A stretch of 64,000 nt of DNA, from NCBI GenBank assembly GCA_019454985.1, contig JACFNF010000011.1, positions 1 to 64,000 on the forward strand, given 5' to 3'. The DNA comes from Bacteroidales bacterium. Lineage in GTDB: Bacteria > Bacteroidota > Bacteroidia > Bacteroidales > F082. The first letter of the stretch is position 1; each line of letters opens with the position of its first letter. Shown in pieces: positions 6,534 through 26,755 of the stretch. A program made the translations under genes and the position numbers. The notes below the pieces were generated by a model. The model had not been told where the DNA came from, did not search any database, and saw nothing but the letters and a program-made list of their open reading frames with translations.

Positions 6534-6559
6534 TAGGAATTTTATACTGATGAGAAGAC

Positions 6560-6598
6560 AAAAAAACAGCATAACGGGTTTTATGGCCGTTATGCTGT
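6560..6598 (-). terminator. Intrinsic terminator between susD and the GH30 gene
   Basis: A perfect 12-bp stem (6587-6598 with 6566-6577), a 9-nt loop and then a T tract on the minus strand. The GH30 start codon lies only about 26 nt further on, leaving little room for a separate promoter, so it may act as a partial terminator or attenuator. Confidence 0.8.
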
Positions 6599-6609: not shown

Positions 6610-8067
6610 CTAATAACCTTCATTCTGAATGAGCTCGGCGTTGTTGTCTATTTCAGACTGAGGGATGGGCCAGAAAAGTTTGTTTTCATTCACCATATAA
6701 CCCAATGAAGTTCCGTTGGGACCGCGCACAGCATTCATCACTTCGATGGCGCGTCCGGTACGTTTGAGGTCATACCAGCGATGGCCTTCGAAAGCCAGTT
6801 CAAGCCGTCTTTCTTTTTCGATGGCCAATTTCATTGCTGCTTTGTCAGCGGCCGGGGTGGGTGCAAGATTTACCCTTGCCCTGATTTGATTTACCAAAGC
6901 GGCAGCGCCGGCCACATCCCCGTTTTCGTTCAGTGCTTCAGCCTTAAGCAACAAAATGTCGGCTAAACGTAAGAAGATATAGTTTTGCGGACTGCTTCCG
7001 GTGAAAATCCTGTATTTGTTGATGAAAGGGAAGTTTGCCTGAGGCCAGTAGGCATCAGACCATTTACCGGTCACGTCGAGGAAAATGATTGACGATTCCT
7101 TACGGATTTGATCGCCTTCGGCATCAAAGGCAGCCACCAGATCGTTGGACGGAGTGTTGAATTTTTTCCAGTCGAGCCCACGAAACATACTTGCGCCCCA
7201 ATTACCACTTTGCGGAGTACCTTCGTAATTGATCTCGAAGATAGCCTCAGCCGAGTTCTCGTGCAGGTTATCCCAAAGCATATCATATTCAGGAAGTAGC
7301 GAGTAGCCTCCTCCGATCACTGCATCGCAATATTGGTTCACCTTATCCCACTGATGTGGTTCGATGGTGGCATACACTTTGGCCAACATGGCATTGGCTG
7401 CGCCTTTGGTTACATAGCCTTTGTGGGCAGCGGTAGCGGGAGCATGTGCAGCAGCCAGTTCAAAGTCGCTGATAATTTGTTGGTAAACATCGGCTACAGG
7501 AGCACGTGTAGGAAACATTTGCGGGTATATTACCGGCAACAGGTCGTAACTCACCGTTGTGATTTCTTTCAACTGTAGAGGCACATCACCCCAAAGTTGT
7601 ACAGCCTGAAAATAGACAAAGGCTCTGATCCAGGCTGCTTCGGCTTTGATTTGCTGTTTGCGTGCAGCATCAACGCCCGGAGTCGAATCGGCATTGTTGA
7701 ATACTAAATTGGCTTTTCCGATGGTGCCATAAAGATAGCGCCAGTCGCGGCTCACATTGGTGTTTGTGGCATCAATGGAAAACTCGTCAATCTGAAAGTT
7801 GGCCGGATTGTCGGCGCCGGCATAGCAGTCGTCGCTTTGCGCATCGCCGTTCACAAAATAGTCGAGCTCGAAATATTCGTTGCGGAAATCATCGTAAACG
7901 CCCATCAAGGCAGCCTCGAGCTCCGAAGCATTCTTGAAAATGAGCTCGGTAGTTTGATTCTCGTCAATCATAATACCTTGAGAAACAGGCTTGATGTCGA
8001 GGAATTTTTCACAAGCCGTGAGGGAGATAACGAGCAGGAGGATGAGAATAAATGAGTTTTTTTTCAT
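6610..8067 (-). CDS. susD-like: SusD/RagB family outer-membrane glycan-binding lipoprotein
   Basis: 485 residues with a lipoprotein signal (SLTAC, Cys19) followed by the SusD start EKFLDIKPVSQG. Later SusD features are WIRAFVYFQAVQLWGDVPL, LRLADILLLKAEALNENGD, and the C-terminal RRLELAFEGHRWYDLKRTG with the ending LFWPIPQSEIDNN. SusD forms the lid of the SusC transporter and binds the oligosaccharide before import. The gene lies 12 bp behind its partner SusC, the standard pair arrangement. It is the second of two SusD proteins in this locus; they differ clearly in sequence, so they may prefer glucans of different length or branching (inference). Confidence 0.95.
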   Translation of the reverse strand: MKKNSFILILLLVISLTACEKFLDIKPVSQGIMIDENQTTELIFKNASELEAALMGVYDDFRNEYFELDYFVNGDAQSDDCYAGADNPANFQIDEFSIDATNTNVSRDWRYLYGTIGKANLVFNNADSTPGVDAARKQQIKAEAAWIRAFVYFQAVQLWGDVPLQLKEITTVSYDLLPVIYPQMFPTRAPVADVYQQIISDFELAAAHAPATAAHKGYVTKGAANAMLAKVYATIEPHQWDKVNQYCDAVIGGGYSLLPEYDMLWDNLHENSAEAIFEINYEGTPQSGNWGASMFRGLDWKKFNTPSNDLVAAFDAEGDQIRKESSIIFLDVTGKWSDAYWPQANFPFINKYRIFTGSSPQNYIFLRLADILLLKAEALNENGDVAGAAALVNQIRARVNLAPTPAADKAAMKLAIEKERRLELAFEGHRWYDLKRTGRAIEVMNAVRGPNGTSLGYMVNENKLFWPIPQSEIDNNAELIQNEGY

Positions 8068-11108: not shown

Positions 11109-12893
11109 TTATCTTACCATAACCATTGTCCAGGAAGCTCCTCCTGAATGGTCGCCCGAGATGTCAACGGATACAATAAGGGTTTCAACTGTTCCATTGT
11201 TTGAATAGCCCATTACTTCGTAGCGGTTTGTTGGGTTTCCGCCATTTGGTGGGTTTGCGCCGTTAGCGTTTTCACCGCCGTAATAGCCTTTCATGAATCC
11301 AATGAATGCAGCCCTTGTAGCGCTGTTGGTCAGTTCAATAATGGCGCGGTTTCCACCCGAAGCCGGGGTGAAGGTGTAGGTGTGTGCATCATCGCCAAGA
11401 GCGCTGCCGAAATAAGCCCCATTGCCGCTGGCGGCAATTTCTTCATCGGTGATACAGCCGTTGGTTCCGCCAAAGTAGCCGTCGTTGCGGGTCGAGCCTT
11501 TGGTGTCGTAGGTGAATTTGCCATCGGCATGGAAAGTAAACTCATCGTCAACCATACACGACCAGTCGTCAGGTGTTCCGGCTGCCGAGCCGTCAAGGAA
11601 GCCAACGGGTGTCTGCCACCATGAAGGATCGCCCATTCCGGGTCCTACATAAATGGAATTGGGAGCAACACGGATTCTCCAGGGAGCTCCTTGCAGAATT
11701 TCGTTGGTAAGTTCTACTGTTGAGACCATAATGTCTACAGTTTTTACATTGGTACCCAATTCATTGGTTGCGGTGAGCGACACAGTGAAGTTGCCATCGG
11801 AAGCAAAAGTGTGGGTTGGGTTAGTTTCGGTTGAAGTACTGCCGTCGCCAAAATCCCAGAGATAGCTTGTGGCATAATTCGAAGTATTTGTGAATGTAGC
11901 GGTGCGGCCATCAAGCACATAGGTGAAGTTGGCTGCCGGCTGGTTGCCCGGAATCGGGGGTTCATCGGCCGGGTTGTCGTAGTGTACGAGAACAAACCGC
12001 CAGTAACCACCATCGGAATCGTCCCATTTGTACTGGCCCTGAACAATCAGTGTGTCGGTAGTACCATCATAAAGCGAGATAATGCTATAAGTGATAGATT
12101 CAGGCATCTCAATCGGACTGGAAGCGATTACTTCTTTTCCATTTCCGAGTTTCTCAAAGCCAATGAAAGCGCCTTTACCAATTGCGGTGATTTTGTTGTT
12201 GGCTCCATCTAATTCAAAAGCATAGGTTCCGCCGCCCCAGGCTGAGAAGTCTTCGCCGGCAGCGCCTACCATTGGATCAGAAGTGCTGGCGCAAATATTG
12301 GCCGGAACATAAATTCCGCCCTCAGCCCAATAATCGCCTTTGCGGTCAATGATCAGTTTACCATCGCGGGTGAAGGTGAATTCATCATTGAGCATACAGG
12401 GCCTGTTGGCCAGTTCGTCGTTGTTGAGTCCCATAGCCCACCAAATTTCGTTATGAGCCCAGGGGCCAACTTCAAGAGGATAAACACCGCCCGAAACATC
12501 GCGCAGGAGTTTCCAGGTTTTGCTGCTTTCGCCAACAAGACGTGTAAGCATTTCGTTGGGGTCGGCAATGGTTACTTTCTTGGTGTAAACATCCGTTGTA
12601 GTTCCTTTCTGCGAGGTAGCAGTCAGTTTTACGGTGTATTCACCAACAGCAGCATAGGTGTGAACAGGGTTCGTTTCGGTTGAAAGAGCAGTGCCATCAC
12701 CAAAATCCCATGACAAGGCAGAAAAATTCTGCGATTCATTGGTAAATTCCACTTTCTTGAAGTCGTTGTCATCAATTTTAAAAGTGAAACTGGCAATGAC
12801 ATCCGGTTCGGGGTCGTCTTTCTTACACGAAGTAAACGGAACGAGCAGCACTGTTAGCAGTAGTGCCAGACTGATTCTAAGTGTTTTTTTCAT
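11109..12893 (-). CDS. PKD-domain surface lipoprotein, putative glycan-binding protein with internal duplication
   Basis: 594 residues with a lipoprotein signal (FTSC, Cys23) and negatively charged residues after it, as in Bacteroidetes surface lipoproteins. It is built as two repeats of [PKD domain + about 190-residue beta-rich module]: PKD 1 at about 33-110 and PKD 2 at about 320-390, both with WDFGDG and (N)P(V/T)HT(Y/F). Modules at about 115-305 and 396-594 share CM(L/V)(N/D)DEFTF, DGK and AFIGF. It sits where SusE/SGBP-type accessory binding proteins are found, but first in its transcription unit rather than after SusD. Likely role: surface capture of the beta-glucan. The modules might instead be enzymatic, but I see no catalytic signature. 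Confidence 0.75.
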   Translation of the reverse strand: MKKTLRISLALLLTVLLVPFTSCKKDDPEPDVIASFTFKIDDNDFKKVEFTNESQNFSALSWDFGDGTALSTETNPVHTYAAVGEYTVKLTATSQKGTTTDVYTKKVTIADPNEMLTRLVGESSKTWKLLRDVSGGVYPLEVGPWAHNEIWWAMGLNNDELANRPCMLNDEFTFTRDGKLIIDRKGDYWAEGGIYVPANICASTSDPMVGAAGEDFSAWGGGTYAFELDGANNKITAIGKGAFIGFEKLGNGKEVIASSPIEMPESITYSIISLYDGTTDTLIVQGQYKWDDSDGGYWRFVLVHYDNPADEPPIPGNQPAANFTYVLDGRTATFTNTSNYATSYLWDFGDGSTSTETNPTHTFASDGNFTVSLTATNELGTNVKTVDIMVSTVELTNEILQGAPWRIRVAPNSIYVGPGMGDPSWWQTPVGFLDGSAAGTPDDWSCMVDDEFTFHADGKFTYDTKGSTRNDGYFGGTNGCITDEEIAASGNGAYFGSALGDDAHTYTFTPASGGNRAIIELTNSATRAAFIGFMKGYYGGENANGANPPNGGNPTNRYEVMGYSNNGTVETLIVSVDISGDHSGGASWTMVMVR

Positions 12894-12966: not shown

Positions 12967-13140
12967 CGTTTATTTCAAAGATTGAGTGGCTTTTTTTTGA
13001 ATTTTTAAACAAGATGCACTTCAGACCATAAAAAGTTGCGCAATCGTTAGCATTTTATGCTTTAGGCAGTATTTTTTGTTTGTGATAGAGGTTTCGTTAA
13101 TACTAATCTTTGTATTTAAATTAGGTGTTACATCAACATT

Positions 13141-14673
13141 TTAATTTGCCGGTTGAAATACCCTGACATAGTCAACCAACATTGTTTGCGGGAACTGTGT
13201 TGTGGCATCGGGGCTCCCGGGCCAGTTACCGCCAACGGCTACGTTCATGATGAAAAACTGCGGAAGTTTGAATGCCTCGAAATTGATGTCAGTGTCTTTA
13301 ATTGAGAAGAACGGTTGATAGTCCACATACCAGGTCATGCCATATTCGCTCCAAAGCAGGGTGAAGATGTGGAATTTTTCATTAAATCCTTCCGAACCGG
13401 CCAGGGTGGTGCTGCTGCCCGTATAGCGATGCCCTCCCTTATCGTAGTGGATCGTTCCATGTACTTCGTTAGCTTTATGACCAAGATATTCCATAATGTC
13501 TATTTCGCCGCAACGGGGCCAGCTTATTGCCGAAATATTGTTGCCAAGGGTCCACAATGCAGGCCAGATACCTTTTCCGATAGGCATTTTCGCACGAAAA
13601 TCAATGCGTCCGTATATAAAAGTCTTTTTGTCTTTTGACAATAGCCGTGCCGACCTGTAGGTGTTGTATGCTTTGGTTGCAACGATATGCAGCTTCCCAT
13701 CCTGTACAAAAGAATTTTCCGACAGAGAGGTGTAAACCTGAAGCTCATTGTTTCCCCATCCGCCTCCGCCGATATCGTAACCCCAATTTTGGGTGTTGAT
13801 GCTTGTACCGCTAAATTCGTCGGCCCAAATCAAGTTGAAACCTTCGTAATTTTCAGGAGTGATGTAGCCATCCTCCTGCAATTCAGGAATAAAAGAATCG
13901 TCGTTATCAATGACGGCCGTGATGTCTTCAGGGACGAATGTCGCATTCTGAATGTCGGAGAAATGAATAAAAAAGCCTTCGTCAAACTCCATGACTTCAT
14001 CGCCCAGAATCGTAATGCTGATTTGTTTTTCAGTTTCTCCGGGATTGAAGACCAGTGTATTATCAGCACTGCCCACATAATCCAGCCCGTCTTTAGCAGT
14101 TCCATCGGCCGTGCTCCACTTGATGCTTACGGGCAGGGTAGAGGCTCCATTAAGCTTTACAGCAAAAGTCAACACATTGTCGCTATTGCCTTCGGCTTGC
14201 CTGACCCGAAGCGGATAGCTGAGTTCAGGAATAAAAACATCGTCGTTCAAAATCACAATATCGCACTGGTTTAATAAAGGTTGTGCGTTGATGACCTTAG
14301 TAATCATCAATTGAAAAGCCTCATTTTCCTCGTAAATCTCATCGCCTATGATTTCGATTTTGATTTCTTTTTCGATTTCACCCGGAAGAAAAATGAGTTC
14401 GCTCTCAGGGATTCCTATATAATCCTCATCGGCTAGAGCTGTACCATCCATGGTTTGGTATTTTACCGTAACATCTTTGTCATAATCGTGGCTGAGCTTA
14501 AGCATGAGACTAAGAAAATGATTGCCCTCATTGCCTTCCAGAGTGCTCATGGTGGAATCAAAGCTGAGGTTCGGTATTGGTTTTTCTTCTTTCTTGCAGG
14601 AATTTATCCCAAGAATGGCCAATATCCAAAAACTAAGAATAATCAAGCGTAGGGGAGAAAAATTGGTGTTCAT
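13141..14673 (-). CDS. GH16 beta-1,3-glucanase-like lipoprotein with two Calx-beta domains
   Basis: 510 residues. Lipoprotein signal (GINSC, Cys26), then two Calx-beta domains (about 35-146 and 150-258; TADGTAKDGLDYVG, FNPGETEKQISITILGDE, IDNDD), then a GH16 jelly roll (about 270-508). The catalytic strand reads GEIDIMEYLG (Glu390, Asp392, Glu395, the ExDxxE form), with GWGNNELQ and AVGGNWPGSP also present, as in laminarinases. It would cut beta-1,3-glucan at the cell surface, with the Calx-beta domains as a Ca-binding spacer that lifts the enzyme off the membrane (inference). It ends the first transcription unit of the locus, 6 bp after the simpler GH16 gene. Confidence 0.9.
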   Translation of the reverse strand: MNTNFSPLRLIILSFWILAILGINSCKKEEKPIPNLSFDSTMSTLEGNEGNHFLSLMLKLSHDYDKDVTVKYQTMDGTALADEDYIGIPESELIFLPGEIEKEIKIEIIGDEIYEENEAFQLMITKVINAQPLLNQCDIVILNDDVFIPELSYPLRVRQAEGNSDNVLTFAVKLNGASTLPVSIKWSTADGTAKDGLDYVGSADNTLVFNPGETEKQISITILGDEVMEFDEGFFIHFSDIQNATFVPEDITAVIDNDDSFIPELQEDGYITPENYEGFNLIWADEFSGTSINTQNWGYDIGGGGWGNNELQVYTSLSENSFVQDGKLHIVATKAYNTYRSARLLSKDKKTFIYGRIDFRAKMPIGKGIWPALWTLGNNISAISWPRCGEIDIMEYLGHKANEVHGTIHYDKGGHRYTGSSTTLAGSEGFNEKFHIFTLLWSEYGMTWYVDYQPFFSIKDTDINFEAFKLPQFFIMNVAVGGNWPGSPDATTQFPQTMLVDYVRVFQPAN

Positions 14674-14679
14674 ATCTGT

Positions 14680-15534
14680 TTATTTTTGAATCATTGGATA
14701 AAAACGCACGTAATCCACTTCCATGCTCACCGGAAAAATGGAATTGTCCACACCCTGTTGTCCGCCCCAATCGCCTCCGATGGCCAGATTGAGCAGAAGA
14801 TGAAACCGCTTGTCGAAAGGCCAGGCTTTGTAACCGGTTCCATCATTCAAACTGGTGAAAATTTGAATGTTGTCAATAAATCCACGAATAGCGTAAGGTG
14901 TCCAGTCAATACGATAGAGATGAAAATCGGTGGTGGCATTTTCAATGATTTTGCTTGCCGACCGTTGGGTTCCGATACGCCAGAAATAGGCTTCGCTGTG
15001 GGTCGTAATAAGTATCCTGTTTGGGTCGAATCCCACATGTTCCATGATGTCAATCTCGCCCGACGAAGGCCATCCGCCATACTCCCAGTCGGTTGGGAGC
15101 ATCCAGATGGCAGGCCATGTGCCGCGACCGGCAGGAATTTTGGCTCTCACTTCAACCCGACCATAAAGCAGGTCGCCTTTGTATTTTGAGACCAATCGTG
15201 CGGAGGTGTATTCCTTTTGTTCAAAGTTTTCTTTGCGTGCTGTGATACTGAGCACTCCATTGTCAACAAAAGCATTTTCGGCGCGATCGGTATAATATTG
15301 CAACTCATTGTTGCCCCATCCATGGCCGCCAAGGTCGTAACTCCATTTCAAGGGGTCAGGAACACCTTGATAATCAAATTCATCAGCCCAGGATGGTTCT
15401 GATTCAAATTCCCAGCCTAAGTCTTGAGGTGGGCCTGGAATAATGATGTTGGGTTTTTTGATGGTATCCTGACCTGCACAACCCTGAACCAGAATGGTGA
15501 AGAGAAAGAGGGGAAGAAAAAGCCTGATTTTCAT
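14680..15534 (-). CDS. GH16 laminarinase-like lipoprotein
   Basis: 284 residues from the ATG at 15534. A start 21 codons upstream is in frame but adds sequence lying in the intergenic hairpin and in front of a complete lipoprotein signal (VQGC, Cys19). A single GH16 domain follows: WADEFDYQG, GWGNNELQYYT, RGTWPAIWMLP, catalytic GEIDIMEHVG (Glu160, Asp162, Glu165), AIGGDWGGQQG. The layout is that of bacterial endo-beta-1,3-glucanases. It follows SusD and precedes the longer GH16, so the operon carries two surface endoglucanases, one bare and one on a Calx-beta stalk. Confidence 0.92.
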   Translation of the reverse strand: MKIRLFLPLFLFTILVQGCAGQDTIKKPNIIIPGPPQDLGWEFESEPSWADEFDYQGVPDPLKWSYDLGGHGWGNNELQYYTDRAENAFVDNGVLSITARKENFEQKEYTSARLVSKYKGDLLYGRVEVRAKIPAGRGTWPAIWMLPTDWEYGGWPSSGEIDIMEHVGFDPNRILITTHSEAYFWRIGTQRSASKIIENATTDFHLYRIDWTPYAIRGFIDNIQIFTSLNDGTGYKAWPFDKRFHLLLNLAIGGDWGGQQGVDNSIFPVSMEVDYVRFYPMIQK

Positions 15535-15551
15535 ACTTCGTTTTTTCAAAG

Positions 15552-15582
15552 AGAGGGGCTGCCGGATACAGCAGCCCACTCT
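15552..15582 (-). promoter_or_regulatory. Hairpin between susD and the first GH16 gene
   Basis: GGGCTGC and GCAGCCC arms (15556-15562, 15571-15577), extended by AGAG/CTCT with a one-base bulge. No T tract follows on the minus strand, so it is more likely an mRNA stability or processing element than a terminator. Confidence 0.5.
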
Positions 15583-15611
15583 GCTCACTAACCACAAAAC
15601 AATACCAATAG

Positions 15612-17096
15612 CTAGTAATTGGGATTCTGTTTCAGTTTGGTGCCATTGAGTTCTGACAAGGGAATGGGAAGCAATTCGTGTTTCCCGGCAATGAAACCCC
15701 TGTCGGCCAATACGTTGGCTGCTTTACCGGTGCGAAGCAGATCGAAAAAGCGATGTCCTTCAGTGGCCAACTCAAGGCGACGTTCAGTATAGATATTATC
15801 GAGGGTTGCAGGAGCTGGAGCTAAACCAACCCTTTGTCTGACAAGATCGAGATAGGTTTGTGCATTGCCGTTATTGCCGCTACGCAGATAGGCTTCGGCA
15901 GCCATCAGGCAAACATCGGCCAGACGAATCTCGATGTAGTTGGTAGGCCATTCCAATACGGGATCACCAGTTCCATGCCCGAAGAATTCCTGTAGCGGGG
16001 CATATTTCTGAATGAAATAGCCGGTATTTTGATAGCCTTTTTCGTAAGAGGCTACGCCGGCTTTTTCAAGACTGTCAATGTTGGCAATGGTAGATCTGTA
16101 TCGGGGGTCATTTTTCAGCAGGTTCACGGTTCCCATAGTGATAGGATTAAAGCCCCATCCGGCCTTGTATGTAGGTCCGTTGTAGGCTCGTGGACCACAC
16201 ATTTGCGTGAAAATATGTCCTTCACCTGCCGGAGGCCAGGGCCCCCAGTAACCTACTGCTGCCGAGGTGTGTGTGATTTCAAAGATGGATTCGGCATTGA
16301 ACTTGTTATCAGGTCTGAAAATGTCGCCATATTTTTCCAAAAGGTGATACACGCCGCTTTTGTAAACAGCATCAAAAAGCTCGGCAGCTTCATCCATACG
16401 GCTTTCATTGTTTTGGGTCAGGATCACCTTGCCAAGCAGGGCCTGAGCTGCTCCTTTCGTGATACGTCCGTTTTCATCAACAGGAACGGTGAGTGGCAAA
16501 TTAGGAATGGCAGCTTTCAGGTCAGCCTCAATTTGTTCGTACACCTTTTCTGGAGCAACCTGTTCAACGTTAAATACTTCTGTTGGAGTTAACGGACTGG
16601 TGATCAACGGAATATTGCGGAACAAACGAACGAGGTCAAAGTAATAATATGCGCGCAAAAAACGAGCTTCTGCGCGAAATCGTTCGCGCAATGCATCATT
16701 CATGGTGGCACCGTCAATTTTGTTGAGCAGGACATTGGTGCGATAGACGCCGGCGTAGTTCCTGGCCCAAAAATCGGCCTGTGGCCCGACAGCAGGATCA
16801 AGAGTGTAGCTGCTCCAGGCTTCCCATGTGGCACGGTCGCCATATGAGCCACCACCGGCATAACACTCGTCGGAAGCAGAATTTAAGAGTCCGACCTTGC
16901 TCGAATAATCTTTCACAACTTCCCACCCAAGCGGGTCGTACGCAGCCACTAAGCCGGAATAAACCTCATCGGCATTTTGATAATAATTATCTTCGAGGGT
17001 AGTTCCTTTAGGTTTGACCTCAAGCCAGTCCTTGCCGCATGAGTTCAGAATCAGCAGGGTGATCAGGACAAACGGGATATATTTTAGTGTTTTCAT
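15612..17096 (-). CDS. susD-like: SusD/RagB family outer-membrane glycan-binding lipoprotein
   Basis: 494 residues; lipoprotein signal with lipobox LNSC (Cys20), then GKDWLEVKPKGT. SusD hallmarks include FRAEARFLRAYYYFDLVRLF, RLADVCLMAAEAYLRSGN, RRLELATEGHRFFDLLRTG and the ending LLPIPLSELNG. It partners the SusC encoded 20 bp upstream. The residues that bind sugar in SusD proteins are not conserved enough to read the ligand from sequence; the beta-glucan assignment comes only from the neighbouring GH16 and GH30 genes. Confidence 0.95.
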   Translation of the reverse strand: MKTLKYIPFVLITLLILNSCGKDWLEVKPKGTTLEDNYYQNADEVYSGLVAAYDPLGWEVVKDYSSKVGLLNSASDECYAGGGSYGDRATWEAWSSYTLDPAVGPQADFWARNYAGVYRTNVLLNKIDGATMNDALRERFRAEARFLRAYYYFDLVRLFRNIPLITSPLTPTEVFNVEQVAPEKVYEQIEADLKAAIPNLPLTVPVDENGRITKGAAQALLGKVILTQNNESRMDEAAELFDAVYKSGVYHLLEKYGDIFRPDNKFNAESIFEITHTSAAVGYWGPWPPAGEGHIFTQMCGPRAYNGPTYKAGWGFNPITMGTVNLLKNDPRYRSTIANIDSLEKAGVASYEKGYQNTGYFIQKYAPLQEFFGHGTGDPVLEWPTNYIEIRLADVCLMAAEAYLRSGNNGNAQTYLDLVRQRVGLAPAPATLDNIYTERRLELATEGHRFFDLLRTGKAANVLADRGFIAGKHELLPIPLSELNGTKLKQNPNY

Positions 17097-17116
17097 CTTT
17101 AACTGAGTTTTTCTGA

Positions 17117-20100
17117 TTAAATACCAATGTTAAGACCTGCCATAAAGGTGCGTGCCTGGGGATAAAATCCGCGATCAATGCCATAGCTTCCGCCTCCAAT
17201 CTCAGGATCGTAACCTTTATATTGCGTAAGGGTAAACAGATTGTTGGCGCCGACATATACCCTTAGGTTGTCAAGTCCGATACGCCGGATAAGATTTTTG
17301 GGAAGTTGGTAGCCAAGCTGAACGGTTTTGACACGCATATAAGCACCGTTGCTTAGGTGGAAGGTCGAAGGGTTGCGGAAGTTGTTGTTGGGGTCGCCAG
17401 CAACAACACGCGGGAAAGTTGTTGAGGTTCCAATGCCATGCCAACGGTCTAAAACATCGGTTGTCCAGTTGGCGTTGGGGATGTCTAGGCGCCTCAAACC
17501 GTTGTAAATGTCATTGCCTGATACACCCTGCAGGAACACCATCAGGTCGAGTCCTTTCCATGCAGCCGACAAGGTGAAACCATAGCTGAAATTTGGTGTC
17601 GGGTCACCAATTACTTTGCGATCATCGCTATTGATGACGCCATCGCCATTGAGGTCGGCAAACTTGAAGTCGCCAGGTCGGGCATTAGGCTGAAGAAGCT
17701 CTCCATCGGAATTAACATACTTTTCCACTTCGCCGTTCGACTGGAAAATGCCCAGAACCTCAAAGCCATAGAAAACACCAATGGGGTAGCCTACCATGAG
17801 CCTGCTGATTTCGTAGGCGCTCGACTGGAAACTGGCACTGGTCAGATAATCAACATCTTCGCTGATATAGGTAACTTCGTTTTTCAGATAAGAACCGTTC
17901 CCACGGACATCGAAATCAATGCCGGAAAACTTAAAACGATAACTGAGCTCCAACTCAACCCCTTTGTTGGTCATAGAGGCTACGTTAGCTGTGGGGTTTC
18001 CGGCTCCTGTATAGTCGGGCAGTCGCAGAGGTTGCAACATCCCGGTTGTACTTTTGTCGTAAAGGTCGAAAGTGATTCGGAAATCGTTAAACAACGTGGC
18101 TTCAAACCCGATGTTCGACTGGCTGGTCTGTTCCCATTCCAGATCGGGGTTGCTGGGGGCATTCGGACTGTATCCCACAACATACCCGTTGTAATTAAAG
18201 GTGTAGTTGCGCCCGCCGCCAATGGTGCTGATGTACCGGAAATCGCCAATGTTGTCGTTCCCCGTAACACCATATGACCCTCTGATCTTGAAAAAATTAA
18301 ACCAATTGATTTCGGGAAAAAAGGCTTCTTTCGACACCACCCATCCTAATGAAAGCGACGGGAAATAACCAAACTTTTTATTGTGTCCGAAACGGGTTGA
18401 ACCGTCGCGACGCACAATACCATTGAAAAGATATTTCTGATCGTAGTTGTAAGACAGACGGCCAAACACCGAAGCCACCTTATGATCGGTTCCTTCCCAT
18501 CCGCCCCCGATTCGGTCGGCATCAGCCACGGAATAATTCATCGAAGCATCTTCAAAATTGTTGACCGGGATGTTTTTATAGGTTACCGAGCTGCCCCTGC
18601 TGGATTCAACAAAAGCTGTTGTCCCAACAAGTGCCGACATCTCATGCTTGCCAAAACTGCGGGAATAGGAGGCAGTGTTTTCCCAGTTCCACATCAGCCC
18701 CTGCGATTGGCTTCTGTCGAAAGAGGTTTTGGGATAGGTGGTGGCCGAATTCAGGTAGGCAACAGGAGTGAAACTTTCACCACCCCAGAAAGCTAATTTT
18801 GTACCGATGTCCGATTTAAACTTTAAGCCTTTGATAGGCTCAAGTTCAGCATAGAAGTTGCCGACAAAGTTGTCCGACCATCCGTAATTTCCGAGATGAG
18901 TTGCAATATACGCCATCGGATTGGTCATTTCCTGGACAACATAAGGCGAGATTCCATAAGGATTACCATCGGCATCGCGCACCACGGGGAATGTGCTGTA
19001 TGGTGCAGCATTGATGAGTGCCGGATCTGTAACCACTACAGGCGTGATTGGGTCGAGATTGATGGCTGATGCCAATGGCCCCCCGAATTCGCTGTTGCTG
19101 TTCATCGGCCCCTGACTCTTGATGTGACTGTAGCCAAAGTTGTTGCCAACTCTAAGCCAATCATTTATTTTATGCGTTGAATTGAGCCTGAGGTTCAATC
19201 GGTTATAATGCGAAATATCGGTGGCCACAATTCCTTCCTGATCGTAATACCCGAAAGAGGTATAATAGGTCGAGCGATCGTTTCCACCGGTAATGCTTAA
19301 CTCATGATTGTGAAGCAAAGCGTTGTTGTTGAAAATTACCCCTTGCCAGTCGGTTCCCACACCAAATTGTTCAGGATTGCTGAACAGGGGACTTTGCCCG
19401 GCATTGGTCAGCATCTCGTTGCGAATAGTGGCGTATTGGGTAGCATTGAGGAGGTCGAGTTTTTTGGCAGGGCTTTGAGTTCCGAAATAGGTATGGTAGT
19501 TCACGCGCATGCTGCCCGAAGCACCTTTTTTGGTAGTAATGATAATAACCCCGTTGGCGGCGCGCGTTCCGTAGATAGCTGCTGAGGCCGCATCTTTCAA
19601 AATTTCAATACTTTCGATATCGGCAGAATTCAGGTAATCAATTCCGCCTACATCCACAGGTGTACCATCAACGATGTATAAAGGGTCGCTGTAGTTAAAA
19701 TTGGTTGTACCACGTACCCTCACCGTTGATGAGGCACCGGGCATACCCGAGCTCGCAGCAATGGTGACACCCGATGTGCGGCCTTGTAGAGCCTGCTCAA
19801 GCCGTGAAATTGGCATGTTCTCAAGATCTTTCGATTTCACACCGGAAATGGCGCCGGTTACAACGCTCTTTTTCTGAACACCGTAACCTACAACCACAAA
19901 CTCTTCAAGTTGGCTAACTTCCGGCTCGAGCGCCCAGTTTACTACAAGCGTTTCTCCCTTGTTCAGACTGATTACCCGTGTTGCCGTTTGGTAACCCACA
20001 AATTTTACCTGAATCACCTGACTGCCTTCCGGAAGGTGGAGCGTGTAGTTTCCATTAATATCGCTCACCGCGCCGGACATGGTGCCAGTAACCAGAATGT

Positions 20101-20221
20101 TTGCACCCGGCAATGATTCATTTGTCGCTTTATCGGTTACTGTGCCTTTGATGGTTGATTGTGCAAACATCATCCCCAAAGGCAAAAACATAACCGAAAA
20201 AAGTATAAGTAATCTCTTCAT
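17117..20221 (-). CDS. susC-like: SusC/RagA family TonB-dependent transporter
   Basis: 1034 residues: a signal peptide ending at about MMFAQ, a carboxypeptidase-regulatory-like domain (GTVTDKATNESLPGANILV), the SusC box EEFVVVGYGVQKKSVV, plug motifs (VRVRGTTN, PLYIVDGTP, IEILKDAASAAIYGTRAANG) and a barrel ending MAGLNIGI. First gene of the polysaccharide locus; a 296-bp upstream gap carries a -7 box and an inverted repeat. With the following SusD it forms the main importer of the locus. Confidence 0.95.
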   Translation of the reverse strand: MKRLLILFSVMFLPLGMMFAQSTIKGTVTDKATNESLPGANILVTGTMSGAVSDINGNYTLHLPEGSQVIQVKFVGYQTATRVISLNKGETLVVNWALEPEVSQLEEFVVVGYGVQKKSVVTGAISGVKSKDLENMPISRLEQALQGRTSGVTIAASSGMPGASSTVRVRGTTNFNYSDPLYIVDGTPVDVGGIDYLNSADIESIEILKDAASAAIYGTRAANGVIIITTKKGASGSMRVNYHTYFGTQSPAKKLDLLNATQYATIRNEMLTNAGQSPLFSNPEQFGVGTDWQGVIFNNNALLHNHELSITGGNDRSTYYTSFGYYDQEGIVATDISHYNRLNLRLNSTHKINDWLRVGNNFGYSHIKSQGPMNSNSEFGGPLASAINLDPITPVVVTDPALINAAPYSTFPVVRDADGNPYGISPYVVQEMTNPMAYIATHLGNYGWSDNFVGNFYAELEPIKGLKFKSDIGTKLAFWGGESFTPVAYLNSATTYPKTSFDRSQSQGLMWNWENTASYSRSFGKHEMSALVGTTAFVESSRGSSVTYKNIPVNNFEDASMNYSVADADRIGGGWEGTDHKVASVFGRLSYNYDQKYLFNGIVRRDGSTRFGHNKKFGYFPSLSLGWVVSKEAFFPEINWFNFFKIRGSYGVTGNDNIGDFRYISTIGGGRNYTFNYNGYVVGYSPNAPSNPDLEWEQTSQSNIGFEATLFNDFRITFDLYDKSTTGMLQPLRLPDYTGAGNPTANVASMTNKGVELELSYRFKFSGIDFDVRGNGSYLKNEVTYISEDVDYLTSASFQSSAYEISRLMVGYPIGVFYGFEVLGIFQSNGEVEKYVNSDGELLQPNARPGDFKFADLNGDGVINSDDRKVIGDPTPNFSYGFTLSAAWKGLDLMVFLQGVSGNDIYNGLRRLDIPNANWTTDVLDRWHGIGTSTTFPRVVAGDPNNNFRNPSTFHLSNGAYMRVKTVQLGYQLPKNLIRRIGLDNLRVYVGANNLFTLTQYKGYDPEIGGGSYGIDRGFYPQARTFMAGLNIGI

Positions 20222-20517: not shown

Positions 20518-22404
20518 TTAAGGCAGTTGTTTCATCTTTTCATTGAAACGTGTTGTTTCAAACGGATTGATTAGCTGTGTTTTAAGATAAGAATCTTTTG
20601 CCAGGTCATATTTTTTCATGGCTGCATAGACGTCGCCTTGAAGGAAATAGCTTTCCTCCTGATTTGGATTCAGGGCTAAACAGTTGTTAACAATCTCATC
20701 CAAAGCGTCTTTATATTGTTTGAGTTGAAAATGTGCCGTAGCTTTCCAGAAATGAACCAGATAAAGGTCGTTGCTCTGAAGGGTTTCATTGCAGAGAGCT
20801 GTCATTTTGTTGTATTCGCCTTGATTGTTGTACATCTCGAGCAGAAATAACTTTGGCGAGAGATAATCGGGGGCAAGCGACAATGCTTTTTCGATGCGTG
20901 ACTGAGCCGAGAAAATCTCGTCCAAATTAAATTCGCAAAGAGCAAGATAAAACCAGGCTGGCGCAAACATGCTTTCCTGACGTATTGCATATTCAAAACT
21001 ATTTTTGGCTTCCCTCCATTTTCCTTCGTTCATTTTTGCCAATCCGCCATTAAGGTTTTCAAGAGCAGGCTGCGAGAGGTCTTCATTGCCAAGATTATAG
21101 CAAATCATCATTGTTTCGAGCTGTTGCAAATCCTTGAATGATGACGTTATTTTGATAGCCGACCTGACATAGGAAATAAAATCATCGGAACCGACAGTGG
21201 CGCTATTGGCGGCTGAAAATACCTCAAAATAGGGTTTGGGCTGTGCACTTAATTGTTTTTCAAGATTTTGAATTATTGCCGGGTTGAAAAGGTATTTTCC
21301 TCCATTTTCTGACTGTTCGGCTTGGAGCGCATAGATGAGGTCGGAGAAATCCTGTTCCCAACCCATTGATTTGAGGTTGCCCGTTTCCGTTGATGTCAGA
21401 TTTTTGGATAATCTGAACAATCCTTTCATCGGGCTAAATCCTGCACTACGTAGTATTTTATTGTAAATCAGATCAGTAAAGAAGGTAAACTTGTATTTAC
21501 CATATGAATCTGTGCTGAGTATCTCAAGTTTTTTGTTGAGAATTTGGTTGCGCCTTTCATAGAGTGTTTCGGTTAGCTCTTTAGCTGTGTTCGAGATTAA
21601 ACGAGCGCTTTCGTCACTTTTTGGAAAAGAAGCTGAGGTGTAGAATTCGGCCTGCCTTCCAAGTTCATTGACTTGACGGATCACCGAACTCATCTTTTCA
21701 ATTTGTTTAAACTCAAATGATTGCAATAAAACCTGATTGGCCTCCTCAAATTCATTGCGTAATTGCGCCAATTGTCCACTGATCGCAGCAAAAGGCCATT
21801 TTCCTGTAAAGTCGGAATAAAAACTCATGTGCTTAAAATAAACCGAGCTTTCTTTTTTATCCAATACTTCCTGAATCATTTCGAGCATTCTGGCGTATTT
21901 CTTTTCCGCTTCGTAACGAATCATTTCTTTGTTTTTATTATCAAACCATTGAAAATCATCGTAGTATGTTTCAGGAAATTGCAAAAAATCGGATTTGCTT
22001 ACTGCACTTGTAAAATAAAAAGGTGTCCAAATTGTTAAATCGGATTTGCGATAAGTCAACAATACGGAAGTGATTTTTTTGTCGGCAAAAAAAGGTTGTA
22101 GAGCTTTGGCCTGGTTAATGGTTTGCCCCTGAATAAGATTGATCTTGCCGATCAGAGCTGTCAGATCGCTTTCTTTGAAAAAAGGGCGCTCACTTTCGGA
22201 GGTTGGGCTGACTAAGAAATAAACAAACTCAGAAGAAATGAACGCATTAGCCGGTATTTGAGAATTGCCAATGCTATCGCTGAGTCTGATATTTACTTTA
22301 GATGCTGTTTTGCTTTTTTGTTTGACAATAAGCTGTGTATCCTGGGAAAAAAGTGGATTAAAAAAAAACAGAAATGTGAGGTAGAAAAAGGTTCGCGTTT
22401 TCAT
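20518..22404 (-). CDS. Exported TPR-repeat protein of unknown function
   Basis: 628 residues with a signal peptide (about 1-20, ending LFSQ) and no lipobox. Residues about 20-140 are mixed alpha/beta, about 150-400 largely helical, and the last 180 hold tetratricopeptide repeats (WREAKNSFEYAIRQESMFAPAWFYLALCEF, ALSLAPDYLSPKLFLLEMYNNQGEY, ALDEIVNNCLALNPNQEESYFLQGDVYAAMKKYDLA, each shown only in part of the repeat). It is probably periplasmic and acts through protein contacts. It follows the histidine kinase by 40 bp with no promoter between, so it may be co-transcribed with the GTPase cluster. It ends 296 bp before the susC operon. I do not recognise the N-terminal two thirds. Confidence 0.7.
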   Translation of the reverse strand: MKTRTFFYLTFLFFFNPLFSQDTQLIVKQKSKTASKVNIRLSDSIGNSQIPANAFISSEFVYFLVSPTSESERPFFKESDLTALIGKINLIQGQTINQAKALQPFFADKKITSVLLTYRKSDLTIWTPFYFTSAVSKSDFLQFPETYYDDFQWFDNKNKEMIRYEAEKKYARMLEMIQEVLDKKESSVYFKHMSFYSDFTGKWPFAAISGQLAQLRNEFEEANQVLLQSFEFKQIEKMSSVIRQVNELGRQAEFYTSASFPKSDESARLISNTAKELTETLYERRNQILNKKLEILSTDSYGKYKFTFFTDLIYNKILRSAGFSPMKGLFRLSKNLTSTETGNLKSMGWEQDFSDLIYALQAEQSENGGKYLFNPAIIQNLEKQLSAQPKPYFEVFSAANSATVGSDDFISYVRSAIKITSSFKDLQQLETMMICYNLGNEDLSQPALENLNGGLAKMNEGKWREAKNSFEYAIRQESMFAPAWFYLALCEFNLDEIFSAQSRIEKALSLAPDYLSPKLFLLEMYNNQGEYNKMTALCNETLQSNDLYLVHFWKATAHFQLKQYKDALDEIVNNCLALNPNQEESYFLQGDVYAAMKKYDLAKDSYLKTQLINPFETTRFNEKMKQLP

Positions 22405-22444
22405 TGGTTTTTGTTTTTATTGGTCTGTATGAAGGGCGAATTTC

Positions 22445-24007
22445 TTAGGATCCGTCCGGAATTTTAATTGTAAACCTGCTGCCGTTTCCCGGTTGTGAGC
22501 TGACGCTGATCTGGAAACCATGGGCATCAATGATTTTTTTGACGATACCCAGTCCCAGACCGGTTCCCTTCTCACCATAAGTTCCATAAGTGGTTTTTCG
22601 GGTAAAGTCCGTAAAAAGTTGATCGCAAGTGTTTTTATCCATACCGATACCGGTATCAATCACTTCGATCATTTTGTGTCCGTTTAAGTTTGAGAAAACC
22701 AGACGAATGGTGCCACCTTCGGGGGTAAATTTCACCGAGTTTCCAATGAGATTGTTCAGTGCCTGTCCCAAAAGAGTTTCATCGCCTTTTACACTAAAAT
22801 CCTTTTCGGCTTCAACAATCAACCGGATATTTTTTTTGTGCAGATTGGTATTCTGCATTTTTTCCACAAACGAACTCAACGCAGTGGCAGCCACATCTTT
22901 TCGACTGATTCGGAAATTCCCAAGTTCGAGGTTCGACCACTGGAAAAGCTTATCATTGTAGTCGAGCAGCCGCTGCATCTCATTGCGTATATCAACGAGT
23001 AACTCGAGCTGCGAGGGGCTGATGTTGCGCGTAAGGCTTTCGTCGGCCAGCAATATCTCGCTTATTCCAATGACTGCACCAATGGGGGAGCGCAAATCGT
23101 GCGAGATGATCGAAACAAACTGGTCTTTGAAGGAAAGCAATTGCTTGAGCTTTTTTTCAGTAGCGGCCAAACGGTCTAAGGTCAGTTTTTGTTCGCGGGC
23201 TTTTTGGATAAAATTGTCATCAGGGCTCTCCTCTTTTTCTAAAGGCTTGATGAGCAGATAACTACGATTTTCGTATTGCAAAGCTAAGGCCCGTAGATAA
23301 AAACGCTCTCCGCTGGTATTTTTTTCTTCCCAGATGTCGCTTGTCATATTGCCGTTGCTGTTACCCGACCACAACAAATCGGCTTCCATTTGAAAAATTT
23401 CAAGATAAGGAAAGACTTCGAGCGGATCAGGAATTTTTTCCGACAAAGGAGGGTGTTTATCAAGCTGCCAAAACCAAGCCGGCGGTGAACCTAAAAGTCT
23501 GTAGAGGTTATTTTTTCGTTCATAACTCATGTAATCAAGCAGTGATAACGCCGATAAAGCGCCTTTGGCTGACGAAATTCTTTTGTCAATCTGAAGGTTC
23601 AGCTTTTCTTCGTTATATAGCTGCAAAATCGGATGAATCAACTCAACCTGTTTGGTTTGGTCAAGCATCAGAATCCATTGTTGATGATTAGTATCCATCA
23701 AAAAATGGATCTCAACATAACACCCATCGTTGACTTTGACGTGAGGAATCACCATCGGGCTGATTAAAGGAGGCAGCATCCCAACAAACAATCCGGTGGC
23801 TGTGTCAATGGAAGTCCCGGGATCAGGCCGTTGGTCAAGATATTTTTCTACTGGTCCAAAACATTGGATGACATTGCTCTCCGAATCAAGATGCAATAAA
23901 ACCAAGCCGATGTAAGGGGGAATTTCGTGCAGGATATAGCTTGCAATATCCGGTGAAATTTCTTTTAAAATCGTTTTTTTTTCTGGACTTTGCATCGGAT
24001 TATCCAT
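22445..24007 (-). CDS. Soluble sensor histidine kinase in the GTPase cluster
   Basis: 520 residues and no membrane segment. Two PAS-like sensory regions are suggested (about 20-120 and 165-260), followed by a coiled-coil and a dimerisation/phosphoacceptor segment with FVSIISHDLRSPIG (His303). A complete HATPase_c domain has an N box near 415-425, DTGIGM at 451-456 and GTGLGLG at 481-487. No receiver domain is present and no response regulator gene adjoins it. The start overlaps the GTPase stop by 8 nt; ATG at 23995 is an equally possible start without overlap. The coupling to a GTPase suggests its input comes from GTPase state rather than from a transmembrane sensor (inference). Confidence 0.88.
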   Translation of the reverse strand: MDNPMQSPEKKTILKEISPDIASYILHEIPPYIGLVLLHLDSESNVIQCFGPVEKYLDQRPDPGTSIDTATGLFVGMLPPLISPMVIPHVKVNDGCYVEIHFLMDTNHQQWILMLDQTKQVELIHPILQLYNEEKLNLQIDKRISSAKGALSALSLLDYMSYERKNNLYRLLGSPPAWFWQLDKHPPLSEKIPDPLEVFPYLEIFQMEADLLWSGNSNGNMTSDIWEEKNTSGERFYLRALALQYENRSYLLIKPLEKEESPDDNFIQKAREQKLTLDRLAATEKKLKQLLSFKDQFVSIISHDLRSPIGAVIGISEILLADESLTRNISPSQLELLVDIRNEMQRLLDYNDKLFQWSNLELGNFRISRKDVAATALSSFVEKMQNTNLHKKNIRLIVEAEKDFSVKGDETLLGQALNNLIGNSVKFTPEGGTIRLVFSNLNGHKMIEVIDTGIGMDKNTCDQLFTDFTRKTTYGTYGEKGTGLGLGIVKKIIDAHGFQISVSSQPGNGSRFTIKIPDGS

Positions 24008-24506
24008 TGTTTTTCTCTAACATCATCTGTCCTAACTTCTGAAATGCATCATTCACCATTAAATTCAGTTTGGCGCTCGTCAGCATCACAGTCCAGCCTT
24101 TTTGTTGAAGCTTAAGCAGTGTTTCGGGTGCAATTTCCCAGCTTTCGGTCAAATCGCTTTTATTGATGAGAAGGATAAAAGGAGCGTTGTTGGTCGTTGC
24201 CGCTGCCATCCTTTGTAGCTCAATGGCTGTTTCGATCGTTTCGCTTCGTGTTCCATCGGCAACCAAAAAATAACCGGATGACCCAATCATATAGCTCGGT
24301 TTCATTTTCATAAATCCGTCCTCGCCATATAAATCCCACAACATCATGGTCATTTCCTGGCCATTGACCATAAGTTCTTTCTGGTCAATTTTCACCCCGA
24401 TGGTGGTGAGATATTTTTCCGAGAAAATACTGTGCACAAATTGCTGAACAAGACTGGTCTTGCCCACCGCAAAAGCACCCAACATGACGATTTTCTTTTT
24501 GATCAT
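24000..24506 (-). CDS. Ras-like small GTPase
   Basis: 168 residues, a stand-alone G domain: P-loop GAFAVGKTS (10-18), switch I LTTIG (Thr35), switch II WDLYGED (Asp58, Gly61), NKSD (115-118) and TSAK (143-146). The residue after the DxxG glycine is Glu62, where Ras has the catalytic Gln61. The length and WDxxGED motif recall a group of bacterial Rab/Ras-like GTPases that I remember next to OmpA-type membrane proteins in other phyla; I have not verified this by search. The start overlaps the membrane protein gene by 4 nt (ATGA), showing translational coupling. No prenylation or lipidation signal is seen, so it should be cytosolic, recruited by its partners. Confidence 0.9.
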   Translation of the reverse strand: MIKKKIVMLGAFAVGKTSLVQQFVHSIFSEKYLTTIGVKIDQKELMVNGQEMTMMLWDLYGEDGFMKMKPSYMIGSSGYFLVADGTRSETIETAIELQRMAAATTNNAPFILLINKSDLTESWEIAPETLLKLQQKGWTVMLTSAKLNLMVNDAFQKLGQMMLEKNNG

Positions 24507-26221
24507 TCCTGTTGTGGTTTGGTGTCGAAAACTGAAAAGTGTACTGAACGCAAAGATACATTTCTATCAAGGTCTTCAACAAATAAAACCTGTGATTTGA
24601 GCAGGTCTTCCTTTACTCCGGCCTGGATAAGCAATTCTCTGAACTCATTGGCACGGTCGAAGGCAACTTTTTCATTGGCCGGATTATGATGATTGGTGTA
24701 CGATCTGACATGAATAGCCATATTTCTGTCGTAAATCCGATTGTAGTCCTCAAGGTTAATCGCAGCTCCTACCAATGAATCAAATTGTAACTGTTGCACA
24801 CTGTCGAGCCGGATGATATTTACATCAAAATAGAAAATATGACGCTCAATTTCGGGCACGATCCATTGTAAATCAACAACATTTTGATTTAAACCTGAAA
24901 TATCAATCTCATTAATGCCAGAAACAGAGCGATAATTCTGCAAAAGTAATTGCTTCCATTCTTCGCTCGATTGTCCGCTGACATATAATATCGCATTTTT
25001 GAGTTTGAATTGAACGCTTTCGGGGGGGAGAAGGATCTGCCGGGCCCGTTGAATAACAATGTCAGCATCCGTCGAAATATAACCCTCTAACTGAAGCCGG
25101 ATCTGAGAAGTATCTAAGTCAGCCCAGCCGGCCATTTGGTTTGGAGGCACAGCAAGCGGATCTTTCAGCCCGTTCACAAACAGTTTATTAAATCCGATTC
25201 TCGATTTGCTGATATGATAACCCGGGCTCATCTCTAATTCCTTGATAAATGCCTGAAAACGCTGTCGGTTTTGGTAGCCTTTGATGAAGAAAAAAGCTGC
25301 GAGGCCAAGGATGATGGCTGATAAAAAAATCAGGGCAATGGGCGGCCTAGGTCGCGTCGCTTTTTTCTCTTTAACAAGACATTGTTTCAGAAATTTGGAA
25401 GTATGCTGAAAAACTGCCGTATCACCATCAAATTTTTCCAAATCAAGGCTGTGATTATAATGTACAGCTTCAATGGTTTCCATCAGGGTGACGCGATAAT
25501 CGGCCGGCGGTTGACCTTCGGCAATGACTGCCAAGATTGCATAAGGCCCTTGCTCAACAAGGATTTTCAGTCCGCCATATTGAATTTCGTCCAATGAGCC
25601 GCTATCGGCTGCTTTTAGCGAATCGCCCACAAAATCGCGGATTGCAGTGAGCATGGATGCGATGAGATCTGATTCCAATGGACGGCTTTCGTCAGCAGTT
25701 TCTTCATGAAGTAACAAGCCCGTGTCACGGTGAATCAAAAAAACATGACTCACATGGTAAAGGTAACTGTTGGCCAAGGCAATTTCGGCAAAACTGCGTT
25801 TGCTAAACAAAGCTTGCAGCCGCCATTTAAGTGCACGTGGCGAAAAACCATTTTCCAAACTCGCGTTCACCGAGGCCAACATGCGCTTGATATCTTCCGA
25901 AACAGCTTTGCGGATGGCCGGTCCCATCACCGGAAACAAAATATTAGCCAAACGTTTCGGATTCTTAAGGATACTCTGGTGGATTGTTTCTTCTACAAAA
26001 GGTAAAAGACTATCGTGGTTCAACTCACCGCTTTCGATCATTTTACGGATAGAATAGGGCAGAAGCCTGCCAATCTCGGCACTGAACTCATGCGGGTCGT
26101 TGAGCAATAGCTGAAGCTTCTGCAACTCATTCTGATCGAGCCCGGTAAGCAGTTTGCGCAACTCGTTCAGCTTGCCTGCTTCCAAAAGGCTATCGTCGAA
26201 ATGCGGACTTTTATTACTCAT
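24503..26221 (-). CDS. Membrane protein with roadblock/longin-like domain, BON-like and OmpA-like periplasmic region
   Basis: 572 residues, no signal peptide. Residues 1-130 are helical with the phrase LFPVMGPAIRKAV (95-107), which I associate with a family of bacterial OmpA-type proteins. Residues about 141-265 look like an alpha/beta roadblock/longin-type domain (HVFLIHRDTGLLLHEE, SDLIASMLTAIRDFV, LVEQGPYAILAVIAEG). A single membrane helix (about 296-314) follows basic residues KKATRPRP, which places the N-terminal part in the cytoplasm. After it come a BON-like segment (about 385-447) and a degenerate OmpA-like C terminus (about 465-570, SYTNHH and FDRANEFRELLIQAGV). Roadblock/MglB proteins bind small GTPases, and a small GTPase is encoded next, so this could link GTPase state to the periplasm. 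Domain calls are by eye. Confidence 0.65.
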   Translation of the reverse strand: MSNKSPHFDDSLLEAGKLNELRKLLTGLDQNELQKLQLLLNDPHEFSAEIGRLLPYSIRKMIESGELNHDSLLPFVEETIHQSILKNPKRLANILFPVMGPAIRKAVSEDIKRMLASVNASLENGFSPRALKWRLQALFSKRSFAEIALANSYLYHVSHVFLIHRDTGLLLHEETADESRPLESDLIASMLTAIRDFVGDSLKAADSGSLDEIQYGGLKILVEQGPYAILAVIAEGQPPADYRVTLMETIEAVHYNHSLDLEKFDGDTAVFQHTSKFLKQCLVKEKKATRPRPPIALIFLSAIILGLAAFFFIKGYQNRQRFQAFIKELEMSPGYHISKSRIGFNKLFVNGLKDPLAVPPNQMAGWADLDTSQIRLQLEGYISTDADIVIQRARQILLPPESVQFKLKNAILYVSGQSSEEWKQLLLQNYRSVSGINEIDISGLNQNVVDLQWIVPEIERHIFYFDVNIIRLDSVQQLQFDSLVGAAINLEDYNRIYDRNMAIHVRSYTNHHNPANEKVAFDRANEFRELLIQAGVKEDLLKSQVLFVEDLDRNVSLRSVHFSVFDTKPQQE

Positions 26222-26239
26222 GATGGTTAGAATTGCCTG

Positions 26240-26755
26240 TTATTGTGATTGTTGCAATTCGTCCCCGCCAAGCTGAACGGCAATTTCAGAAAGAAGCAGA
26301 GCCAATCCCTGCCGATCCACTTTGGCTTGTTGAATATCCTTGAGTTGCCGGCTCAGGGCATTGCGATGTTCCTGAAGTTGCATTTGCTGTTCGCTCATCA
26401 GTTGTTCGTACCGGCCCGAAGCCCATTGGCGGGTGTCCTGAATGAGCGCTTCGGTGGATTGAGCAAGTTGGTTGATCTTTTCTTCGAGCTGCTCCACCCG
26501 CTGACGAAGCTCATCTGCAATACTCTTCAACTCCGTTTTATTGTTTTGAAGCTGTACAGATTGTTCCTGTCTGAGGCTTTCGATGGTTTGCCTGATTTCG
26601 GATAGTTGCCGGTTGAAATGATTCTCAATGAGCTGTGTTGCCTCGAGGGCTTCCTGTCCCGTCTTTTCAATTTTGCGTTCGAACTGACTCAGATTACTGC
26701 CCATCAATATATCCCTGATGCGGGATATGTCGTCCGATTCTTTTGTTGCGCTCAT
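26240..26755 (-). CDS. Coiled-coil protein, first gene of the GTPase cluster
   Basis: 171 residues, no signal or membrane segment. A short N-terminal motif DISRIRDILMGSNLSQFERK is followed by continuous heptad-rich coiled coil from about 35 to 150 and a Gln-rich end. The N-terminal motif resembles residues about 18-40 of the next protein (LNELRKLLTGLDQNELQKL), suggesting a common docking element. It is 18 bp from the next gene and has its own -7 box, so it opens the operon. The function is unknown; a cytosolic scaffold or adaptor is likely. Confidence 0.65.
   Translation of the reverse strand: MSATKESDDISRIRDILMGSNLSQFERKIEKTGQEALEATQLIENHFNRQLSEIRQTIESLRQEQSVQLQNNKTELKSIADELRQRVEQLEEKINQLAQSTEALIQDTRQWASGRYEQLMSEQQMQLQEHRNALSRQLKDIQQAKVDRQGLALLLSEIAVQLGGDELQQSQ

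Follow-up and report, generated by a model that had tools for sequence, protein, structure and literature searches.

A Group 1 Rup GTPase module with a predicted longin-fold membrane protein next to a laminarin-type polysaccharide utilization locus in a Bacteroidales bacterium

We investigated a cluster of five genes, built around a Ras/Rab-like small GTPase, in DNA of a Bacteroidales bacterium (GTDB F082; assembly GCA_019454985.1, contig JACFNF010000011.1, positions 1-64,000, forward strand; this whole stretch of 64,000 nucleotides (nt) is called the window below). All five genes lie on the minus strand. In the order of transcription, and together with a candidate promoter box in front of them, the features are:

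26827-26820, minus strand: candidate Bacteroidota -7 promoter box TATCTTTG before the coiled-coil gene (motif match only)
26240..26755, minus strand: coiled-coil protein, 171 amino acids (aa), with a conserved N-terminal motif ISRIRDILMGSNLSQFERK and a conserved C-terminal motif DR..LA.LL
24503..26221, minus strand: membrane protein, 572 aa (analyzed by AlphaFold2, Foldseek/VIA-align and profile search)
24000..24506, minus strand: Rup Group 1-type Ras/Rab-like GTPase, 168 aa, with P-loop GAFAVGKT, G3 WDLYGED, G4 NKSD and G5 SAK
22445..24007, minus strand: soluble histidine kinase, 520 aa, with domains D1 (residues ~10-145, containing Gln129) and D2 (~150-290, containing Gln268), HisKA and HATPase_c
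20518..22404, minus strand: tetratricopeptide repeat (TPR) protein, predicted exported, 628 aa, accessory gene

The kinase and GTPase genes overlap by 8 nt and the GTPase and membrane protein genes by 4 nt; gaps of 40 nt and 18 nt separate the TPR gene from the kinase gene and the membrane protein gene from the coiled-coil gene. A motif scan for the Bacteroidota -7 box TAnnTTTG found no match in the gaps between the five genes. Coordinates, overlaps and gaps are all as given in a first-pass annotation of this DNA, and the scan agrees with its statement that no promoter lies between the genes.

The GTPase belongs to the Ras family, as had been proposed (Pfam Ras, E 1.2e-28). Among solved structures Rab23 is the closest relative (E 7e-20), Ypt7 is also one of the best sequence matches there, and the gene is present as a single copy in the genome. 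The G3 motif WDLYGED contains no catalytic glutamine, so that the residue equivalent to Ras Gln61 is a glutamate; of 80 aligned relatives, 72 have E or D at the position following this glycine. A missing G3 glutamine is a feature of the Group 1 Rup GTPases described by Wuichet & Sogaard-Andersen in 2014, part of a predicted system that lists Bacteroidetes among its phyla and whose GTPases are reported to be very similar to eukaryotic Rab/Ran/Ras/Rho (PMC4316618). The neighbours described there are a cytoplasmic coiled-coil protein, a protein composed of a conserved domain, a transmembrane (TM) segment and an OmpA domain, and an output module, which is either a cyclic di-GMP enzyme or a histidine kinase and has an invariant glutamine in its N-terminal region (PMC4316618). 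We observed each of the features tested in the window cluster: Ras-superfamily motifs G1-G5, a G3 motif without glutamine, a coiled-coil neighbour, a domain-TM-OmpA neighbour and a kinase output with an invariant N-terminal glutamine. The cluster is thus of a known, predicted kind, and four of its five genes (coiled-coil protein, membrane protein, GTPase and kinase) match the Group 1 Rup system. The relay is therefore not undescribed, as the first-pass annotation had held, since the set of four genes and the idea that it signals from the membrane to an output had both been put forward in 2014 (PMC4316618). In the open literature we found neither an experimental study of a Group 1 Rup system nor an assigned function for any of its GTPases; papers after 2014 only cite the classification. 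The window system differs from the published description in that its kinase fuses two tandem glutamine-bearing domains, in its accessory TPR gene and adjoining laminarin-type polysaccharide utilization locus (PUL), and in the longin fold that the domain of unknown function receives below.

Next, we scanned ~85,000 species genomes with an alignment of the membrane protein. This gave at least 493 relatives, of which 80 were kept; they come from Bacteroidota, Cyanobacteria (including Nostoc), Desulfobacterota, Acidobacteriota, Gamma- and Zetaproteobacteria, Verrucomicrobia, Gemmatimonadota, Calditrichia and Spirochaetes. Counting only loci where the contig extends far enough, we found a coiled-coil homologue upstream of the membrane protein gene in 71 of 74 loci, the GTPase directly downstream on the same strand in 72 of 79 (median gap 4.5 nt), a protein bearing D1 or D2 downstream in 57 of 65, and the TPR protein in 1 of 54. 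The conservation of this gene arrangement across phyla is more than chance. It bears out the statement in the first-pass annotation that similar OmpA-GTPase neighbours occur in other phyla, while of the five genes expected to be retained together the coiled-coil, membrane protein, GTPase and output genes are kept and the TPR gene is not.

For the membrane protein we obtained an AlphaFold2 model from an alignment of 52 relatives (pLDDT, the model's own confidence score, 81.6). The chain consists of a helical N-terminus with the motif LFPVMGPAIRK, a longin domain (residues 154-286), a TM helix (within 295-331), a BON-like region (~335-446) and an OmpA/Pal domain (448-566). In the predicted model, residues 155-279 have the topology beta-beta-alpha-beta-beta-beta-alpha-alpha of the longin fold, with strands at 155-164, 170-175, 212-215, 218-224 and 228-235 and helices at 184-203, 240-262 and 269-279. 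Comparison of residues 154-286 by VIA-align gave Sec22b with Z 13.2 (root-mean-square deviation (rmsd) 2.8 over 124 residues), Fuzzy in CPLANE/Rab23 complexes with Z 12.5-13.0, Ykt6 with 12.2, a Lokiarchaeal longin with 11.3, the Mon1-Ccz1 subunits with ~10, and MglB with 10.2 over 105 residues. The alignment to longins covers more residues than that to MglB and takes in the second C-terminal helix, so longin is a better label than roadblock. The model therefore backs the roadblock/longin domain suggested earlier in its longin part and not as a roadblock, and a Pfam scan found no Robl_LC7 match at E<=1 in the five proteins. The previously 'unknown' domain of the membrane protein is, on this model, a longin fold, which is a new assignment. 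The BON/OmpA region that had been read from the sequence was recovered as well: the OmpA/Pal domain is matched by VIA-align (Z 11.8) and by profile search (E 1e-15), and for the BON-like region before it Foldseek lists the BON proteins Rv0899, BonA and DolP. The protein is predicted to be anchored in the inner membrane, with the peptidoglycan-type OmpA domain outside and the longin domain inside. Within the class Bacteroidia it occurs in 6 of 395 sampled genomes including the source, and three of these six have only a short version of ~285 aa without the TM and OmpA parts. This short variant, composed of the N-terminal and longin regions, was seen at L029 (6085-6936) and in genomes G134, G296, G593 and G571; at L029 it is encoded with a GTPase and a kinase, possibly a soluble version of the system.

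The coiled coil of the 171-aa protein was judged from sequence only. Its N-terminal motif resembles that of the membrane protein (IxKIRDILFG.. and LxELRxLLxG..); the shared motif is weak in profile comparison (E 0.007, probability 5.6%), and both proteins may dock on the same partner.

The kinase contains HisKA and HATPase_c by Pfam, with no receiver domain and no PAS match in that scan, and has no obvious TM segment, in line with its earlier description as a kinase without transmembrane input. AlphaFold2 modelled residues 1-292 with pLDDT 87.3. In structure comparison D1 has a PAS fold with Z 8-9.3 (ThkA PAS, Z 9.3, rmsd 2.1 over 83 residues) and the D1+D2 pair resembles LOV-PAS-HK, the match being measured chiefly on D1 and on the pair. 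On the model, D1 and D2 are PAS-like domains, a finding that is new here; roadblock or longin domains had been candidates for this region, and AlphaFold2 gives PAS instead. In Nostocales, D1 is a separate gene of ~130 aa directly after the GTPase gene and D2 is the head of the next kinase, while the Bacteroidales fuse both to one kinase; the more distant Bacteroidia G445 and G523 have similar full-length kinases and seem to have the fusion too. Profile comparison links D1 and D2 only weakly as copies of one domain (E 0.002, probability 13.5%).

A laminarin-type PUL (5079-20221) follows directly downstream on the strand of the Rup cluster:

17117..20221, minus strand: SusC of the linked PUL, orthologous (65-81%) to SusC beside the Rup module in relatives
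15612..17096, minus strand: SusD of the linked PUL
14680..15597, minus strand: GH16 (laminarinase-type family)
13141..14673, minus strand: Calx-beta + GH16
11109..12893, minus strand: PKD-domain protein of the PUL
8080..11019, minus strand: second SusC of the PUL
6610..8067, minus strand: second SusD of the PUL
5079..6572, minus strand: GH30 of the PUL

Counting the source, this PUL adjoins the Rup module in six genomes. Three of the five others (G553, G555 and G557) have orthologues of the PUL genes in the same order, with SusC 68-81% identical compared to ~33% between paralogues, and additionally a GH3; this gene, which the relatives carry between GH16 and PKD (PUL loci L140, L141, L142 and L143), is missing from the window PUL. 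G560 has the start of a SusC gene at the corresponding position, where its contig ends (58% over 146 aa), and in G554 the order is rearranged, with SusC-SusD-GH16-GH3 a few kilobases off on the opposite strand (SusC 65%). The link of the Rup module to a laminarin PUL, which like the PAS-like domains was absent from the first-pass annotation, is new here and conserved in relatives. The Bacteroides beta-1,3-glucan PULs (1,3GUL) share SusC/SusD, GH16 and, as far as the window's relatives are concerned, GH3; they differ in that a hybrid two-component system (HTCS) regulator is listed beside SusC, the place held by the Rup module in the window (PMC7157763).

For better evaluation of this position we analyzed ten of the sampled Bacteroidia genomes, all of which contain SusC genes related to that of the window (51-60% identity). 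The full-length Rup membrane protein is missing from every one of them (a short, longin-only copy is present in G571 and the others gave only unrelated OmpA matches), and all ten have a PUL-type regulator in the region before SusC. These regulators are Y_Y_Y/LuxR proteins in G253, G122 and G107 (two of the three with Reg_prop), FecR in G007, a propeller/Y_Y_Y protein in G571, FecR with an adjacent extracytoplasmic function (ECF)-type sigma factor in G261 (scanned), G080, G099 and G138 (sigma factor by sequence), and in G025, at a distance of one more SusC copy, a protein whose N-terminal sequence is SusR-like (by sequence). No HTCS, SusR-like or ECF/FecR regulator was seen in the examined stretches of the window, G553, G555 and G557. 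In G554 a DDE transposase gene interrupts the Rup kinase gene, and a SusR-like regulator (Reg_prop/Y_Y_Y/LuxR) stands beside SusC (L033 8254-11276; L143 10188-13130), a single case that fits regulator replacement. We tentatively propose, at somewhat less than an even chance, that a Rab-like GTPase, paired with a longin protein that spans the envelope, acts in one clade of Bacteroidales as the dedicated regulator of a laminarin locus, in the slot otherwise taken by HTCS, SusR-like or ECF/FecR regulators.

Two known kinds of GTPase system help to read the module. With MglA-MglB and the actinobacterial conservons (CvnA-D) it shares a small GTPase with a partner of the roadblock/longin superfamily, and with the conservons also a histidine kinase alongside. 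However, the G3 motif of MglA is TVPGQ or GTPGQ and not WDLYGED, the partner there is a separate soluble roadblock protein instead of a trans-envelope longin protein, and conservon kinases are membrane proteins whereas the window kinase is soluble. With the longin guanine nucleotide exchange factors (GEFs) of Rab proteins (Mon1-Ccz1 for Ypt7/Rab7 and Fuzzy-Inturned for Rab23) it shares the pairing of a longin fold with a Rab-like GTPase, but the window protein has one longin domain per chain plus TM and OmpA domains; the likeness is at fold level only and a GEF role of the window protein is putative.

Taken together, we favour, with moderate confidence, a reading in which the Group 1 Rup module uses an envelope-anchored longin protein to set a Rab-like switch that tunes a kinase and plausibly controls the adjoining PUL. 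The state of the envelope would be read by the OmpA/BON part and would alter the longin domain, which, probably as a dimer, would serve as a platform (GEF or GTPase-activating protein (GAP)) controlling which nucleotide the GTPase carries. Once loaded with GTP, the GTPase would dock on the PAS-like domains, and their exit helices would change kinase activity. Less certainly, in this Bacteroidales clade the kinase output may control the laminarin-type (beta-1,3-glucan) PUL via a response regulator encoded elsewhere. Several observations speak against this reading. The longin call derives from a predicted model and fold similarity, with the N-terminal half before the longin domain at low confidence; the profile of the 52 relatives matches only OmpA chains among the 60 matches listed, and the Pfam scan of the window proteins gave no longin family. 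The contacts of the GTPase with the longin domain and with D1/D2, and the direction from periplasm to kinase, are putative. The module brings no response regulator gene of its own. A second candidate -7 box lies upstream of SusC (20404-20397, motif match only), and the PUL seems to be transcribed from a promoter separate from that of the module. In other phyla the Rup modules mostly lie away from this PUL, as do the modules of G445 and G523. Finally, the opposite flank of the module, oxidoreductase-MiaB-MtaB, is common to L030, L031, L034 and L036.

The latter two points also favour the alternative that holds up best, namely that the adjacency is inherited gene order only and the module serves the envelope or cell polarity in general, without regulating glucan use. 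Since the opposite flank is syntenic as well (L030, L031, L034-L038), inherited order explains part of the linkage; in L035, L037 and L038 this flank is kept (in L035 in part) without the PUL. Against this alternative, the opposite flank is not seen in G553, G554 and G560 and the PUL linkage stays, genomes lacking Rup have conventional regulators in front of SusC instead, and a regulator is present where the Rup kinase is split (G554). We regard inherited order as a serious explanation, if not quite the probable one.

Signal flow could also be reversed, the PAS domains of the kinase sensing a cytoplasmic cue, the GTPase being the output and the membrane protein its effector on the envelope or on transporters. 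The PAS-like nature of D1/D2, a common sensory fold, is consistent with this, as are the missing response regulator and the analogy to conservons, for which Wuichet & Sogaard-Andersen posit the GTPase as output (PMC4316618). However, we observed that D1/D2 head many different enzymatic outputs: class III cyclases (L039, L058), SpoIIE phosphatases (L050, L054), HD-GYP proteins (L042, L056), GGDEF-EAL proteins (L071, by motif) and GAF-HisKA_3 kinases (L045, L081). Such variety is easier to reconcile with D1/D2 lying on the output side of one common upstream switch than with numerous outputs feeding into a single GTPase, and we consider the reversed direction unlikely.

Two roles may be considered for the conserved glutamines of D1 and D2. 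In the alignment of relatives Gln129 is invariant (48 of 48) and Gln268 is present in 47 of 49, and the GTPase lacks Gln61, as would be expected if the glutamine were catalytic in trans and D1/D2 were GAPs of the GTPase, as Wuichet & Sogaard-Andersen hypothesized in 2014. Where residue 61 is not acidic, moreover, D1/D2 are mostly missing from the locus (raw p 0.011, with the truncated L049 miscounted as non-acidic and phylogeny uncontrolled), so that a coupling of residue 61 to the presence of D1/D2 is only suggestive. In the model, however, each glutamine follows a D-x-T motif and sits on the exit helix of its PAS domain, a site where signal transfer is known to occur, and the domain is present twice in Bacteroidales kinases. 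A signalling role is thus at least as likely as a trans-acting catalytic one, and the GAP hypothesis for D1/D2 seems improbable to us.

That all five genes including TPR form one signalling unit, as first proposed, is very improbable and TPR is rejected as a core member: the 40 bp between the kinase and TPR genes, without a promoter motif, and the same gene order in the closest relative L036 (the one relative of the TPR protein, 41% identity) are outweighed by its presence in only the 1 of 54 loci, its absence beside the module in L032, L034 and L066, and a search of 295 genomes from the class that gave no further full-length relative.

Our analysis makes three additions to a known system: the longin assignment, a PAS-like plug-in domain of many output types, and the link to a nutrient locus. 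The longin-fold partner is a concrete candidate regulator of the GTPase and bears on how Rab-longin partnerships arose; if the reading is true, a partnership of Rab-like GTPase and longin fold would be widespread in bacteria and the Rup module, as a PUL regulator, would add a new class to the known modes of PUL control. The conserved link to a well-understood nutrient locus offers a candidate readout, the induction of one SusC gene by laminarin.

In the wider set of loci we recognized some deviating arrangements. The membrane protein of L020, L021 and L022 has no adjacent GTPase or kinase by BLAST, and a coiled-coil gene is found in L021 and L022. At L025 (5361-6338) the GTPase is the C-terminal half of a 325-aa open reading frame, possibly a natural fusion. 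In three Desulfobacterota loci (L059, L085 and L089) a different downstream protein with the motif LFPELVGSE, perhaps a third type of partner domain, lies beside a GTPase, in L059 and L085 a divergent one on the opposite strand.

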